In this document: piece after piece, positions 27,953 through 32,791 of the stretch
Layout of the letters: the number at the start of each line of letters is the position of its first letter
Position numbering within the stretch: the stretch's first letter is position 1
Origin: Candidatus Methylomirabilota bacterium
Lineage (GTDB): Bacteria > Methylomirabilota > Methylomirabilia > Rokubacteriales > CSP1-6
Assembly: GCA_036001065.1 (NCBI GenBank)
Contig: DASYUQ010000025.1
Coordinates: 1 to 32,791, forward strand
Length of the DNA: 32,791 bases
Reading direction: 5' to 3'
Notes under the pieces: generated by a model
Told to the model about the DNA's origin: nothing
The model's input: the letters and a program-made list of their open reading frames with translations, nothing else
Databases searched by the model: none
Program-made: the position numbers and the translations under genes

Positions 27953-29299
27953 TCAGCTCGCCGCGTCGGCCAGCAACGCTTCGACCGCGGTGGTGATGGC
28001 GCGCGCGTCCGTCCCGGCGGCGGGCAGAGTCGTCGACGAGAGCCGCGTGCGCTGCTCGGCCTCGCCCAGAGCCGCCACCCGGGCCTGGGCGCGAGCCCGC
28101 AGCGCGTCCGCCAGCAGCAGCGCGATCTCGCTGAGCGCGGCCAGCGCGGTGGCGGCCTCCTGGGGGGGTGATTGTGCCTCCCGCAGCAGCTCGCGGAGAC
28201 GCTCGCGCACGCGCGTCGACACGCGCGCGCCGTTGCCGCGCACCTCGAGCAGGTCTCCGGGGACCGGGCCCCACTCGAGCGCCAGCTCCTGCGCGTCCGC
28301 CCGGATGAACGGCGCCAGCGGGGCGGCGCTGGTCGCCGCCACGACCGCGCCGATGCCGCCCGCCACGGCGTCGGCCAGGGGCCGCGTGCCCGAGGCGGGC
28401 GGCGCGTCCTCGGCGAGGCGTGTCACCTCGCCCTCACGTGTCAGCTCCAGGTGATCGGCCACGGGGCCACCGAGGACCCAGAGCGAGCAGCGCACGCGGT
28501 CCTCGACGTCCCGCACCCGGCGGGGCGCGTGGCGCGCGATGCCCTCCCAGTCCGGCCGGTAGTACGGGCGACCACGCCAGACCACCTTCTCGATGCGCCC
28601 GCGGAGCTGCACGTACGCGCCCTCGGGCGTGAAGACGCGCTCGTGCGGGGCGGGGCGCCAGGCGAGCGAGAGGTCCATGAAGGCCGCCAGCGGATCGTCC
28701 GTGGACGTCTCGTAGCGGAACGACTCCAGAAGGGCGAGGAAGAGCTGCTCCGTCGGATAGGGGCCGCCATACGCGATGCCGGTGCGCCGCTGGTCGGCGG
28801 CCAGCGCCGCGATCAGGTTCAGGACGGCGATCCCCCCGCTCGGCGGCAGCCGGCCGGGCTCGGCGAGCGTCGGGATCCGGTCGATGCCGGCGTAGTCGAG
28901 CGCGTCGTAGACGGTGAGGGGCGTGCCGGCCGCTCCCACGCGCTCGGCGTGCCAGACGCGGTCGGAGAGTCCCCAGGGGGCGTCCGCCGCCGCCCGTGGC
29001 TCGATACGCAGCCACGAGCGGTCGGCGATGCGGACCCACGCCGCCGCGAGAGTGTCGGCCGACCAGCGGAGGGCGCAGAGCGGCGCGCCGTGGCGGTCGA
29101 GCTCCAGCGCGCGGCGCCGGGGCCCTCCGGGGGGCGGCGCGTAGCCGACGATGGTGCCGTGAGCCTCGACGACGAAGTCGCCCGCGCCGGCCTGGCCCCC
29201 GAGGGCCCGCCGCAGATGCGCGGCGGTCGCGGGACCGACGGCCCCCGCCAGCTCGTCGTCGAGCCGCGACAGGAGCCGCGCGGCGTGTCCGACGTCCAC
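27953..29299 (-). CDS. Uncharacterised 448-aa protein, convergent with the M50 gene
   Basis: 448-aa soluble protein starting at GTG 29297-29299 (a longer reading to 29941 runs antisense through the amidase and is rejected). It has no membrane segments and no familiar motif. The N-terminal half has Gly-Pro-rich loops and an LSDRVWHAERVG segment; the middle holds GIAYGGPYPTEQLFLALLES, then RGRIEKVVWRGRPYYRPDW; the C-terminal third is Ala/Arg-rich helix (LSEIALLLADALRARAQARV). TATCAT sits 7 nt upstream, so the mRNA may be leaderless. It ends 46 nt from the M50-like gene, facing it. Function unknown; homologues should be sought, as codon use is that of a real gene. Confidence 0.7.
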   Translation of the reverse strand: MDVGHAARLLSRLDDELAGAVGPATAAHLRRALGGQAGAGDFVVEAHGTIVGYAPPPGGPRRRALELDRHGAPLCALRWSADTLAAAWVRIADRSWLRIEPRAAADAPWGLSDRVWHAERVGAAGTPLTVYDALDYAGIDRIPTLAEPGRLPPSGGIAVLNLIAALAADQRRTGIAYGGPYPTEQLFLALLESFRYETSTDDPLAAFMDLSLAWRPAPHERVFTPEGAYVQLRGRIEKVVWRGRPYYRPDWEGIARHAPRRVRDVEDRVRCSLWVLGGPVADHLELTREGEVTRLAEDAPPASGTRPLADAVAGGIGAVVAATSAAPLAPFIRADAQELALEWGPVPGDLLEVRGNGARVSTRVRERLRELLREAQSPPQEAATALAALSEIALLLADALRARAQARVAALGEAEQRTRLSSTTLPAAGTDARAITTAVEALLADAAS

Positions 29300-29306
29300 G
29301 GAGCGG

Positions 29307-29316
29307 ATGATACAAT
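29307..29316. promoter_or_regulatory. Overlapping divergent -10 hexamers
   Basis: ATGATACAAT contains TACAAT on the plus strand (29311-29316), 6 nt before the GTG of a mini-ORF, and TATCAT on the minus strand (29307-29312), 7 nt before the GTG of the 448-aa gene. Both imply leaderless starts, and a single polymerase could occupy only one direction at a time. Clear -35 boxes are missing on both sides. Confidence 0.4.
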
Positions 29317-29322
29317 GCACGA

Positions 29323-29358
29323 GTGGATAACAAGATCGAGGTGCTGACCTCCGCGTGA
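29323..29358 (+). CDS. Possible 11-codon upstream ORF coupled to the amidase
   Basis: GTG GAT AAC AAG ... GCG TGA encodes MDNKIEVLTSA, and the A of its TGA is the A of the amidase ATG (TGATG). A TACAAT hexamer six nt before its GTG would allow a leaderless transcript. The amidase itself has no good Shine-Dalgarno upstream, so re-initiation from this mini-ORF is plausible. It may also be chance. Confidence 0.35.
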   Translation: MDNKIEVLTSA

Positions 29359-30767
29359 TGAATCCCGAGGAGCTGATCTGGCGCTCCGCGCTGGAGCTCG
29401 TCGACCTCGTTCGGTCCAAGCAGCTCTCACCGGTCGAGATCACCGAGGCGGTGCTCGCGCGCATCGAGGCCCTCAATCCCCGCCTGAACGCCGTCTGCCT
29501 CGTGGCCCACGATGCCGCCCGCCGCGCCGCCCGGGAGGCCGAGATCGCCGTGGTCAAGCGTGAGCCGCTGGGGCCGCTACAGGGCGCGCCCGTCTCCATC
29601 AAGGACGTCATCTTCACGCGCGGCCTGCGCACGACCGGTGGCTCGCGCCTGTTCGCCGAGGTCGTGCCCGAGGAGGACGCGGTGGCGGTGGCGCGCCTGC
29701 GCGCGGCCGGGGCCGTCATCACGGGCAAGACCAACACGTCGGAGTTCGGCCACAAGGCCGTCACCGAGAACCCGCTGTTCGGGATCACGCGCAACCCCTG
29801 GAACCTCGAACTGACGCCGGGCGGCTCCAGCGGGGGCGCCGCGGCAGCGGTGGCCGCCGGCCTGGGGCCGCTCGGCCTCGGCACGGACGGGGGTGGATCC
29901 ATCCGCATTCCGGCCGCGTTCTGCGCGGTGTACGGCTTCAAGCCCTCCTGGGGACGCGTGCCTCAGCATCCGGGCTTTCCGGGCTGGGACTACGTCGGCT
30001 GCACGGGCCCCATCACGCGGACCGTGCGCGACGCCGCGCTCGTGCTCGACGTCATCGCCGGGGGGGACGATCGCGATCGCTACTCGCTGCCCCGCGAGGC
30101 GGGCTCCTATCTGGAGGCCTGCGACGAGGAGATCAAGGGCTTCCACGTCGCCTGGACCGCCGACCTCGGCTATGCGGCGGTCGACCCGCGCGTCCAGGCG
30201 GTCTGCGAGAACGCGGCGGCCGAGTTCGAGGCGCTCGGCTGTCACGTCGAGGTGGTGAATCCGGGCTGGGACAGTCCCGAGGAGGTCTTCGGCACGCTGA
30301 TCGCGGCGCAGTTCTACGCGCACTGGTCCGATCACCTTCCGGCCGCCGAGGCGCTGCTCGATCCGACGCTGGTGAAGCTCATCCGGCGCGGGGGCGCAAT
30401 CAGCGCGCGTGATTACCTCGTCGCCGCCGAGCGCGTGAAGGGCTACTGGAGCGAGGTGCAGGGTTTCCTGGCGCGCTTCGACCTGCTGCTCACGCCGACC
30501 GTCGCCGTGCCGCCGTTTGCCGCCGGTCAGGCGCCGCCGCGGGAGATCGCCGGCCAGGACGTCTCGGTGCTGGGCTGGATGCCTTTCACCTATCCGTTCA
30601 ATCTCACGGGCCAGCCCGCGGCCAGCGTGCCGGCGGGCTTCACGGACGACGGCTTGCCCGTCGGCCTGCAAATCATCGGGCGGCGCCACGCCGACCGGGC
30701 GGTGCTGGCCGCGTCGGCGGCCTACGAGACGGCGTGCCCGTGGAGTGAGCGGCGCCCGCCGCTGTGA
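29358..30767 (+). CDS. AS-family amidase (GatA-like)
   Basis: 469-aa amidase-signature hydrolase. The triad Lys82 (VSIKDV), Ser157/158 (GGSSGGA) and Ser181 (DGGGSIRIP) is complete. It lacks the N-terminal extension seen on the amidase at 15982 and the gatB/gatC neighbours expected for a Glu-tRNA amidotransferase, so it is likely a free amidase; the substrate is unknown. ATG 29358 is preferred to GTG 29355 because the ATG overlaps a mini-ORF stop. It overlaps the following membrane gene (GTGA). Confidence 0.93.
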   Translation: MNPEELIWRSALELVDLVRSKQLSPVEITEAVLARIEALNPRLNAVCLVAHDAARRAAREAEIAVVKREPLGPLQGAPVSIKDVIFTRGLRTTGGSRLFAEVVPEEDAVAVARLRAAGAVITGKTNTSEFGHKAVTENPLFGITRNPWNLELTPGGSSGGAAAAVAAGLGPLGLGTDGGGSIRIPAAFCAVYGFKPSWGRVPQHPGFPGWDYVGCTGPITRTVRDAALVLDVIAGGDDRDRYSLPREAGSYLEACDEEIKGFHVAWTADLGYAAVDPRVQAVCENAAAEFEALGCHVEVVNPGWDSPEEVFGTLIAAQFYAHWSDHLPAAEALLDPTLVKLIRRGGAISARDYLVAAERVKGYWSEVQGFLARFDLLLTPTVAVPPFAAGQAPPREIAGQDVSVLGWMPFTYPFNLTGQPAASVPAGFTDDGLPVGLQIIGRRHADRAVLAASAAYETACPWSERRPPL

Positions 30768-31519
30768 CCACGCCCGAGCCGCGGCACCGCCCGGGGCTGA
30801 CGCCGGTCGCGCGCTGGGCCCTGGTTTCCGTCTTTCTCGCCGCGGCCCTCGTTTTCGTCGTCTGGCTCGTCGTGACCGATGCCCCGAGCATCCGCCTGGT
30901 CGTCCGGCTCTACCGCGACAAGCAATTTCTCAAAGACACCGTCGCCTCGTGGGGGTGGCTGGCCCCCGTGGTCTTCGTCGTCATCCAGGCGCTCCAGGTG
31001 GTCGTCTCGCCCGTGCCCGGCGAGATGACCGGACCGGTGGGCGGGGCGCTGTTCGGCACGTGGTGGGGCCTGGTCTACTCGACGCTCGGCCTCACGATCG
31101 GGACGCTCTTCTGCTTCTGGGTGGGGCGCAAGTGGGGCGAGCCGCTCGTGCGGCCGTGGCTCAGCGAGCACAACTGGAACCGGCTGAACTTCATCCTCGA
31201 GGCCGAGGGCGCCATTCTCTGCTTCATCCTCTATCTCACGCCCGGCTTTCCCAAGGACATCATCTCGTACCTGTTCGGCATCAGCCCGATGCCGTTCTGG
31301 CTCTTCGCGCTCGTCTCCACCCTGGGCCGCCTGCCCGGCACGTGGATCTCGTCCTACTTCGGCGCCCACGTCGCCGAGCAGCAGTACGTGTACGCCGCGG
31401 TCTTCATCGCGCTGATCATGGCCACCTGCTTGCCCCTCTACTACTACCGGGATCGGATCATCAAGCGCTTCCATCGAAAGAGCGCGCCTCCGCAAAAGGT
31501 CCAGCGGAAAAGTCCTTGA
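30764..31519 (+). CDS. DedA/TVP38 (VTT domain) membrane protein
   Basis: 251-aa polytopic protein of the DedA/TMEM64 (SNARE-associated, VTT) superfamily. It has an N-terminal helix (ALVSVFLAAALVFVVWLVV), then WGWLAPVVFVVIQALQ and the family re-entrant segment MTGPVGGALFGTWWGLVYS with GTLFCFWVGRKWG, then YLTPGFPKDIISYLFG and GRLPGTWISSYFGA. Members act as lipid scramblases or transporters such as undecaprenyl-phosphate flippases; which applies here is open. GTG start overlaps the amidase stop. Its TGA lies within the -35 of the next promoter. Confidence 0.85.
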   Translation: MTTPEPRHRPGLTPVARWALVSVFLAAALVFVVWLVVTDAPSIRLVVRLYRDKQFLKDTVASWGWLAPVVFVVIQALQVVVSPVPGEMTGPVGGALFGTWWGLVYSTLGLTIGTLFCFWVGRKWGEPLVRPWLSEHNWNRLNFILEAEGAILCFILYLTPGFPKDIISYLFGISPMPFWLFALVSTLGRLPGTWISSYFGAHVAEQQYVYAAVFIALIMATCLPLYYYRDRIIKRFHRKSAPPQKVQRKSP

Positions 31520-31545
31520 CGCGGGTCGGCCGGCTCCGGTAGAGT
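31516..31545 (+). promoter_or_regulatory. Promoter of the DAHP synthase leader
   Basis: TTGACG (31516-31521), an 18-nt spacer and TAGAGT (31540-31545) make a plausible sigma-70-type promoter. The predicted start near 31552 falls only about 6 nt before the ATG of the leader peptide (31558), so the leader peptide mRNA would be almost leaderless. Confidence 0.5.
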
Positions 31546-31557
31546 GCGGACACGCTC

Positions 31558-31635
31558 ATGACGAACGCGCGCCGACGGCACTTCGGGTTCTTCTTTTATT
31601 ACTTCGCCGAGGTCCGCCCGGGCGCTCTGACCTAA
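31558..31635 (+). CDS. Phe/Tyr-rich leader peptide of the DAHP synthase gene
   Basis: A 25-codon ORF that is too short for ordinary gene callers. It encodes MTNARRRHFGFFFYYFAEV..., with five Phe and two Tyr within eight consecutive codons (codons 9-16; codon 10 is Gly). Such runs of codons for the end-product amino acids are the hallmark of attenuator leader peptides. It lies directly before a set of mutually exclusive hairpins and a T-rich terminator, upstream of a gene for the first enzyme of aromatic amino acid synthesis. No strong ribosome site is seen. Confidence 0.8.
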   Translation: MTNARRRHFGFFFYYFAEVRPGALT

Positions 31636-31718
31636 CCGAACAAGAGCCGCGGGCGGACCGAAAGCCCGCGGCGAGACGATCCAGGCCGCGGGCTCAATCC
31701 CGCGGCCTTTTGTCTTTT
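31611..31718 (+). promoter_or_regulatory. Transcription attenuator with five pairing segments
   Basis: Segments: A GGTCCGCCCG (31611-31620, inside the leader peptide), B GCCGCGGGCGGACC (31646-31659), C GCCCGCGGC (31664-31672), D GCCGCGGGC (31685-31693), E CCCGCGGCC (31699-31707), then TTTTGTCTTTT (31708-31718). A:B, B:C and C:D each pair perfectly over 9-10 bp; D:E is a perfect 9-bp stem (31684-31692 with 31699-31707) before the T-tract, i.e. an intrinsic terminator. B and D share the same 9-mer. A ribosome that stalls at the early Phe codons leaves A free, favouring A:B and C:D (read-through); a ribosome that reaches the stop covers A, favouring B:C and D:E (termination). The wiring is inference; the pairing is read from sequence. 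Confidence 0.75.
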
Positions 31719-31862
31719 GGGGATCACGGGAGATCGGTAACCGCCGCGCCGGGCCGGAAACCCGGAACGAGATGAGTCGACGTGCGGAGCCACCCGCACC
31801 TGCGGCAGGCCACCCACGGTAGAAGCCGTGCTGGCGGACCCCGCTACAAAGGAGAGACCGCG

Positions 31863-32791
31863 ATGATCATCGTGCTGAGGTCGGGATCGACGGACGCCGA
31901 GCTCGAAGATGTGTGCCAGCGCATCCGGCGGATGGGGTACACGCCGCACACGATCCGTGGCGAGCTGCGGACCGTGATCGGCGCGGTGGGCGACGACCGT
32001 GGCAAGGAGCGGCTCCGGAGCCTCGAATCGCTCGAGTGCGTGGAGCTGGTCCAGCCGATCCTGCAGCCGTTCAAGCTCGCCAGCCGGGAAGTGCGGAGCG
32101 AGGCGACGCGGGTGCGCGTGGGCGATGTCACGATCGGTGGCGACCGACTGGTGATCATGGCGGGCCCCTGCTCCGTGGAGTCGCGGGAGCAGTTGCTGGA
32201 GGTGGCGGGACGGGTGAAGGAGGCGGGCGCCACGATCTTGCGCGGCGGCGCGTTCAAGCCGCGCACCTCGCCGTACGCCTTCCAGGGCCTGGAAGAGGAG
32301 GGGCTGAAGCTCCTGGACGAGGCCAGACGCGAGACGGGCTTGCCGGTCGTGACCGAGGTGATGGAGCCGGACAAGGTCGACGTGGTGGCCGAGCACGCGG
32401 ACATCCTCCAGATCGGGGCCCGCAACGTGCAGAACTTCTCGTTGCTGCGGAGGGTCGCCGAGACGAAGAAGCCGGTGCTCCTCAAGCGCGGGATGTCGAC
32501 CTCGATCCAGGAGTGGCTGCTGTCGGCGGAGTACGTGCTGGCCGGCGGTAATCCGAACGTCATCCTGTGTGAGCGCGGCATCCGCACGTTCGAGACGGCC
32601 ACGCGGTTCACGCTCGATCTCAACGCCGTCCCGGTGGTCAAGAAGCTGTCGCACCTGCCCATCGTGGTCGACCCGTCGCACGGGACGGGGCACTGGGAAT
32701 ACGTGGAATCGATGGCCATGGCGGCCGTGGCGGCGGGCGCCGACGGCCTGATCATCGAGGTGCATCCGCGGCCCGCGGAGGCGCTGTCCGA
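31863..32791 (+). CDS. aroF: DAHP synthase, type I-beta (3' end off window)
   Basis: 3-deoxy-7-phosphoheptulonate synthase condenses phosphoenolpyruvate with erythrose 4-phosphate as the first shikimate step. About 309 codons are visible; roughly 30 more are beyond the edge. An N-terminal ferredoxin-like regulatory domain (residues about 1-75, [17 protein letters not shown]...) precedes the barrel, as in the Thermotoga-type enzymes feedback-inhibited by Tyr/Phe. Active-site motifs are [48 protein letters not shown] and [16 protein letters not shown] precedes the ATG by about 9 nt. The stretch 31719-31862 between terminator and start has only short hairpins (CCGGG/CCCGG, GTGCGG/CCGCAC). The symbol denotes the enzyme class and is not a claim of orthology. 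Confidence 0.93.

Follow-up and report, generated by a model that had tools for sequence, protein, structure and literature searches.

The region upstream of a type I-beta DAHP synthase (DAHPS) gene in a metagenome-derived bacterial genome very probably constitutes a ribosome-mediated transcription attenuator that senses Phe and Tyr and, in many relatives, Trp. Comparison among relatives supports the leader, its codon run, the stems, their spacing, the association with DAHPS and, in several relatives, the lack of room for another promoter. The hallmarks of an attenuator were found as follows: a run of end-product codons in a short ORF, with stall and stop positions that, by model calculation, leave the first arm of the antiterminator free or cover it; an antiterminator and a U-tailed terminator whose stems exclude each other; and a regulated gene downstream with, as predicted from the sequence, no promoter in between (gap down to 6 nt).

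The window analysed here (32,791 nucleotides) comprises the initial 32.8 kb of a contig in a genome of 4.46 Mb, the closest relatives of which are Candidatus Rokuibacteriota. The first-pass annotation of this DNA had named the gene downstream of the leader a type I-beta DAHP synthase, and profile searches confirmed this assignment: the protein matches NF006421 (480 bits) and TIGR01361 (387 bits) and combines the PF00793 core with the N-terminal ferredoxin-like domain PF18152, as expected for type I-beta.

Table 1 Features of the DAHPS leader region and of the related Leu/Ile element. Positions are those of the window unless a locus is given.
Feature	Position	Strand	Details and basis
Promoter: -35 TTGACG 31516-31521, 18-nt spacer, -10 TAGAGT 31540-31545	31516-31545	+	sequence pattern
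Leader peptide ORF MTNARRRHFGFFFYYFAEVRPGALT, 25 codons, stop TAA 31633-31635	31558-31635	+	near-leaderless start (predicted)
Regulatory codon run F-G-F-F-F-Y-Y-F, including rare TTT and TAT codons	31582-31605	+	aromatic fraction, TTT enrichment
Segment A 31611-31620 and extension 31624-31628	31611-31628	+	A:B paired in 99% of cells; extension 90%
Segment B: 31650-31659 to A, 31646-31654 to C, 31643-31647 to A extension	31643-31659	+	inverted repeats, alignment
Segment C, partner B or D	31663-31672	+	B:C 98.8%, C:D 99.1% paired
Segment D, partner C (antiterminator) or E (terminator)	31683-31694	+	inverted repeats, alignment
Segment E 31699-31708 and T-tract 31708-31718; intrinsic terminator with D	31699-31718	+	D:E 99.2% paired
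Inverted repeat A:B	31611-31620/31650-31659		100% complementarity
Inverted repeat B:C	31646-31654/31664-31672		100% complementarity
Inverted repeat C:D	31663-31672/31685-31694		100% complementarity
Inverted repeat D:E	31683-31692/31699-31708		100% complementarity
Shine-Dalgarno-like AAAGGAG of the DAHPS gene	31848-31854	+	sequence
Type I-beta DAHP synthase (regulated gene)	31863-32791	+	last gene of window; cut by window and contig end
Leu/Ile leader, five-segment layout, ahead of ppdK run	L121, G000:C82:16092-16220	-	also L162-L181

Architecture and conservation of the leader

The boxes TTGACG-N18-TAGAGT form the only promoter-like site in positions 29000-32791 (3.8 kb; shuffle mean 0.1), and the same boxes precede the leaders of relatives. 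The plausible promoter noticed in the first-pass annotation is thus retained, but not the distance of 22 bp given there between the -35/-10 pair and the ORF, as the ATG follows the end of the -10 box by 12 nt. Because of this short distance, the leader mRNA is probably nearly leaderless, with a predicted transcription start at about 31552 and a 5' UTR of about 0-6 nt. Among relatives, group I leaders have their ATG about 9-13 nt past the -10 box (near-leaderless) and group II leaders have an AGGAGG-type ribosome-binding site followed by GTG or ATG. Within one family, the near-leaderless start of group I, as in the window, is exchanged for a Shine-Dalgarno start with longer 5' UTR in group II (L027, L033, L035, L037-L039), and the distance between A and the stop grows from 21 to 24 nt.

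The 25-codon ORF with FGFFFYYF proposed at first reading is present (Table 1), and TTYTWYTTYTWYTWYTTY, a pattern of six Phe/Tyr codons, has a single match in the window and is absent from all 100 shuffles. Among 38 aligned leaders, 36 keep the aromatic run, with F and Y interchanging. Phe, Tyr and Trp account for 62% of codons -11 to -4 before segment A versus 5% of codons -17 to -12, and codon -3 is Phe in 37 of the 38 leaders. Trp occurs in 17 of them and is absent from the leader of the window. TTT makes up 32% of the Phe codons in the leader run compared to 2.5% in DAHPS genes (odds ratio 18, p about 1e-15); the choice of regulatory codons among synonyms is described to set the sensitivity of an attenuator (PMC1183508). 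The spacing of the stop is nearly fixed, at 21 or 24 nt after the GTC of segment A in 35/38 leaders. In three leaders with intact stems, namely L023 1826-1910, L028 861-945 and L140 (MRSRAACTGCYVSCFPSREVCPRALTD; GFSVVDFPFSE), most of the aromatic run is gone, and L023 and L028 cluster by their DAHPS genes (99/95). Decay and another signal are candidate causes.

The peptides of the relatives consist of a variable N-terminus, often with Arg, the aromatic run and a tail like EV[CR]PGALT or VCPSALTP directly before the stop; further examples are MGTSTRRIGFFSFFYFAEVRPGTLT and, with a GTG start, VEQTGGRIEQGWRFYFFYFAHVCPSALTP. Since conservation within the peptide is highest in EV[CR]PGALT, this stretch could be regarded as an arrest peptide responding to a metabolite or to secretion instead of codon starvation. 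This is very unlikely: segment A with its extension codes for the tail, C/R, P/S and P/L replacements alter the peptide with retention of pairing, the N-terminal part of the peptide is variable, and F and Y interchange at the aromatic positions. Because A:B pairing survives the C/R and P/S replacements, the tail is conserved as RNA and not as peptide.

Segments A-E with mutually exclusive perfect stems and a terminator with T-tract, both claimed in the first-pass annotation, were recovered as four overlapping repeats of full complementarity, the last of which gives a terminator-like hairpin (31683-31708) followed by TTTGTCTTTT; TTTTGTCTTTT stands directly after the last inverted repeat. Folding of the 169-nt leader is 4 sd more favourable than that of its shuffles, and the helix energies in the window are balanced (B:C -20.8, C:D -21.3 and D:E -21.5 kcal/mol). 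The palindrome CCGCGG is present in all of B-E, so that part of the cross-pairing comes free, and it is the comparative data that make the mutually exclusive stems convincing. In the alignment of 38 leaders, the stems were scored by paired cells, two-sided changes, shuffles and register-shifted controls. All four stems are paired in 98.8-99.2% of cells and both alternative structures in 97-99%, and pairing drops to 36-54% when the partners are slid by 1-3 columns. Two-sided changes affect two pairs of A:B (G-C/C-G in 8 sequences, U-A/C-G in one), B:C (G-C/A-U in 10 sequences) and D:E (G-C/C-G in 3 sequences). C:D, with a nearly invariant D, varies mostly on one side, mainly G-C/G-U, and shows the weakest covariation of the four stems. 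Cells with two-sided changes exceed those of shuffles, the observed value being reached by 1/500 for the read-through and 0/500 for the termination structure. The comparison across relatives suggested in the first-pass annotation has thus yielded both the Phe/Tyr run and covarying stems.

In a scan upstream of related DAHPS genes, the same small ORF was seen ahead of DAHPS in nearly all Rokubacteria. A covariance model detected the element in 54 of the 57 genomes of the family, and the remaining three have no assembled DAHPS 5' end or no DAHPS. DAHPS is the next gene on the same strand for 60 of 62 strong matches (median gap 33 nt), and the other two also run into DAHPS, at contig ends. The element, which had been taken for an unusual compact version, is therefore the standard design in this lineage. 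At 6-16 nt, the smallest gaps between element and DAHPS, seen in several relatives, are too short to hold a further promoter.

Two further explanations were weighed. A VTT-protein gene lies directly 5' of the leader on the same strand, and 154 nt separate segment E from the DAHPS start in the window, so the hairpins might only end the VTT transcript, with a DAHPS promoter after the terminator and an ORF present by chance. We regard this as extremely unlikely, as no promoter-like site was found between terminator and DAHPS in the window, the element ends 6-16 nt from DAHPS in relatives, the aromatic run and the stop spacing are conserved and a conserved promoter precedes the leader; the explanation was disfavoured already on these grounds. 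A structured leader with a terminator ahead of a biosynthetic gene could also be a metabolite riboswitch or a T-box. The probability of this is close to nil: a search against Rfam, including amino-acid operon leaders and T-boxes, gave no family at the gathering threshold and only unrelated low-threshold matches far below the cut-off, and such an RNA would leave the conserved aromatic run unexplained. A search for tRNA/tmRNA gave no match.

Some observations concern the surroundings of the leader. At 31833-31843, just 5' of the ribosome-binding site of DAHPS, GGCGGACCCCG shows 91% complementarity to segment A (31608-31618), which may be chance. The order VTT gene - leader - DAHPS is present twice in the assembly, on the contig of the window (G000:C25) and on G000:C198 (L085), where the leader peptide is MATWWRRVGFFFYYFAGVCPGALT and the copy runs on into a second DAHPS. 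The DAHPS of the two contigs are 82% identical, and no near-identical second copy of the amidase adjoining the window copy was found in the assembly. The two syntenic copies meet contig ends and may reflect either duplication or strain mixture. In relatives (L156, L157, L009, L016, L025), DAHPS is followed on the same strand by a TonB-like gene and thrS-infC-rpmI-rplT-pheS-pheT, and pheS starts within a few bases of rplT in several relatives. A promoter-like site lies ahead of thrS (L085 3619-3648); with such a site present, attenuated DAHPS transcripts may or may not extend to pheST. No leader was seen upstream of trpE and pheA in the source genome.

Proposed mechanism and folding calculations

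We infer the transcription start, translation, stalling, the polarity of control in the cell and the relevance of Phe versus Tyr. Transcription would start about 6 nt before the leader ATG, and a ribosome would load on the near-leaderless end and trail RNA polymerase. When Phe-tRNA (or Tyr-tRNA) is short, the ribosome would stall in the FGFFFYYF run, the early codons of which are mainly Phe. Segment A, which starts 8-29 nt 3' of the run codons, would then stay free and pair with B, leaving C to pair with D, and E, deprived of D, would let the polymerase enter the DAHPS gene. With charged aromatic tRNAs, the ribosome would reach the stop codon and cover the 3' half of A and the extension, upon which B:C and then D:E would form and transcription would end at the T-tract.

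For the 38 leaders, the ribosome footprint was masked and the emerging RNA was folded. When the ribosome occupied the first aromatic codon and D had emerged, the mean pairing was 0.99 for A:B and 0.98 for C:D, and C:D exceeded 0.5 in 38/38 leaders. With the ribosome at the stop, A:B was lost and B:C was leading on average, with a mean of 0.56-0.63. The logic put forward in the first-pass annotation, i.e. read-through upon stalling at the Phe codons and termination upon full translation, fits these calculations as well as the spacing of codons, stop and stems. After synthesis of E, D:E prevails at equilibrium in all states, the stalled one included (mean about 0.8; window 0.92), and therefore the decision for read-through must be kinetic: C:D would have to form before E is made. 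When the mask of the ribosome at the stop was extended over the first base of B, C:D replaced B:C in the window as D emerged; B:C could still form first, as C emerges before D.

In the unmasked RNA, A:B (mean 0.86; 1.00 in the window) and C:D form first, and a 5' protector segment pairing with A in the untranslated state was not found by unmasked folding. Because no 5' segment protects A, the untranslated RNA should, in this model, default to read-through. In the his leader, a further 5' protector segment is present and termination is the default; untranslated trp and his leaders terminate, unlike the default predicted here. The wiring, likened at first reading to multi-segment his/leu leaders, thus lacks the protector segment of a his-type six-segment leader. 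The likeness to the his leader of E. coli/Salmonella lies in the extra hairpin between control region and terminator and in the relay of alternative stems (PMC1183508).

Related forms and a Leu/Ile counterpart

Aromatic leaders followed by two successive U-tailed terminators are found in other families of the class (L127/L040, L133, L136, L144-L147, L149), and L143 has the two terminators at a contig start. Three-segment aromatic leaders occur in other families (L128, L129/L055, L150, L151) and in Desulfuromonadales, where a Phe/Tyr/Trp leader of their own (FFGGFYFWSGFYF) precedes the same DAHPS type (L045, L048, L050, L053, L057, L062); A and B of the Desulfuromonadales leaders differ together between L062, L057 and the others. 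In the family of the window, no U-tract follows the first hairpin (B:C), and D:E is the sole terminator. On a simple reading, a tandem-terminator attenuator would need C:D to disarm its second terminator, and the relay would have stayed after loss of the first U-tract. In a DAHPS tree of 56 proteins (mis-framed row L034 ignored), the architectures cluster and the tandem and three-segment types change several times; therefore the direction of change is not proven.

Among the weaker matches of the model (E about 1e-5 to 1e-10) is an element that precedes ppdK in the source genome and in many others of the family, with leaders like MTLITARVLSLGLILLALPGLPGASAK. The gene ppdK heads the run ppdK - dapA-like - ilvB - ilvN - ilvC (source genome, G047), followed in the source genome by leuA and leuB; these names were given by eye from translations, and only ilvB passes its cut-off (TIGR00118). 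We read the element as a putative Leu/Ile attenuator of branched-chain synthesis. Both leader and stems are retained throughout the 26 genomes examined, and the peptide is also signal-peptide-like. Segments B/C/D/E read CCACGGG/CCCGTGG/CCACGGG/CCCGTGG in the ppdK element versus CCGCGGG/CCCGCGG/CCGCGGG/CCCGCGG in the window, and the difference in step of all four segments supports C:D. The frames over segment A are offset by one base between DAHPS and ppdK elements, which may or may not derive from a duplication.

These forms bear on the reading that A:B versus B:C controls, with C:D incidental to the CCGCGG palindromes and D:E an ordinary second terminator. The palindrome common to B-E, the mainly one-sided changes of C:D and the existence of three-segment versions without D:E (L128, L055, Desulfuromonadales) are in line with it. 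Where D:E is the sole U-tailed hairpin, however, the leader could not act on D:E without C:D; moreover, C:D is paired in 99% of cells of the 38 leaders, and the ilv/leu version has a fully complementary C (GCCCGTGGC) and D (GGCCACGGG), both of which change together between the elements. We thus consider a partial relay unlikely and retain the full one from A to E. With slightly less than even confidence, we propose that the five-segment core is, in Rokubacteria, a codon-swappable cassette with read-through as default for want of a 5' protector and on a near-leaderless mRNA, used with Phe/Tyr codons for DAHPS and with Leu/Ile codons for ppdK-ilvBNC-leuAB, which originated from a tandem-terminator form, in which C:D enabled a single stalled ribosome to disarm both terminators, and then lost the first U-tract. 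In other families of the class, Val-rich leaders such as MDLLRSTTYKRSVVVAVVRACPRAGGV were seen, whose A/B core is similar and whose terminators are paired (L130, L131, L132, L134, L137), followed by genes for a sigma-54-type regulator or malate synthase or by genes without assigned identity.

Comparison with known systems

Classical attenuation of a DAHPS gene, which the first-pass annotation took as known, is exemplified by aroR-aroF of C. glutamicum. As described there (Neshat 2014 via PMC11802643), a Phe-Tyr-Phe leader precedes the DAHP synthase operon and read-through is reported on Phe limitation, Tyr being without effect. The two systems, likened here through this published description, share an aromatic leader peptide ahead of DAHP synthase and differ in phylum and in the shorter run of C. 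glutamicum. Attenuation was also proposed for the Acholeplasma uORFC-13-1 motif, in which aroF is preceded by a terminator and by an ORF containing one or more Phe codons; this motif differs in its ribosome-binding site, in a U-run coding for Phe and in its consensus, and is described only in Acholeplasma and environmental sequences (PMC8632094). As in pheA and pheST of E. coli (pheL, pheM), a Phe-codon leader stands over Phe-related genes, and DAHPS of relatives lies upstream of thrS-infC-rpmI-rplT-pheST, but control here is at DAHPS, and pheA of the source genome has no visible leader. The attenuator leader peptide trpL of Sinorhizobium meliloti is likewise translated from a leaderless 5' end (PMC7298713), in that case for a Trp operon and in an unrelated RNA.

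In the literature searched, which left most subscription journals outside, no paper was found on such elements in Rokubacteria, in Geobacter or ahead of ppdK. With DAHPS attenuation itself known, what is new is the five-segment relay at DAHPS, the series of forms and the use with a second codon run. The finding places classical attenuation at the entry of the shikimate pathway in an uncultivated soil lineage for which we found no earlier report. The short RNA makes the steps of the relay, the untranslated default and the effect of the leaderless start accessible to reporter or in vitro tests, and the three-segment, tandem-terminator and five-segment forms provide material for studying the origin of multi-stem leaders.
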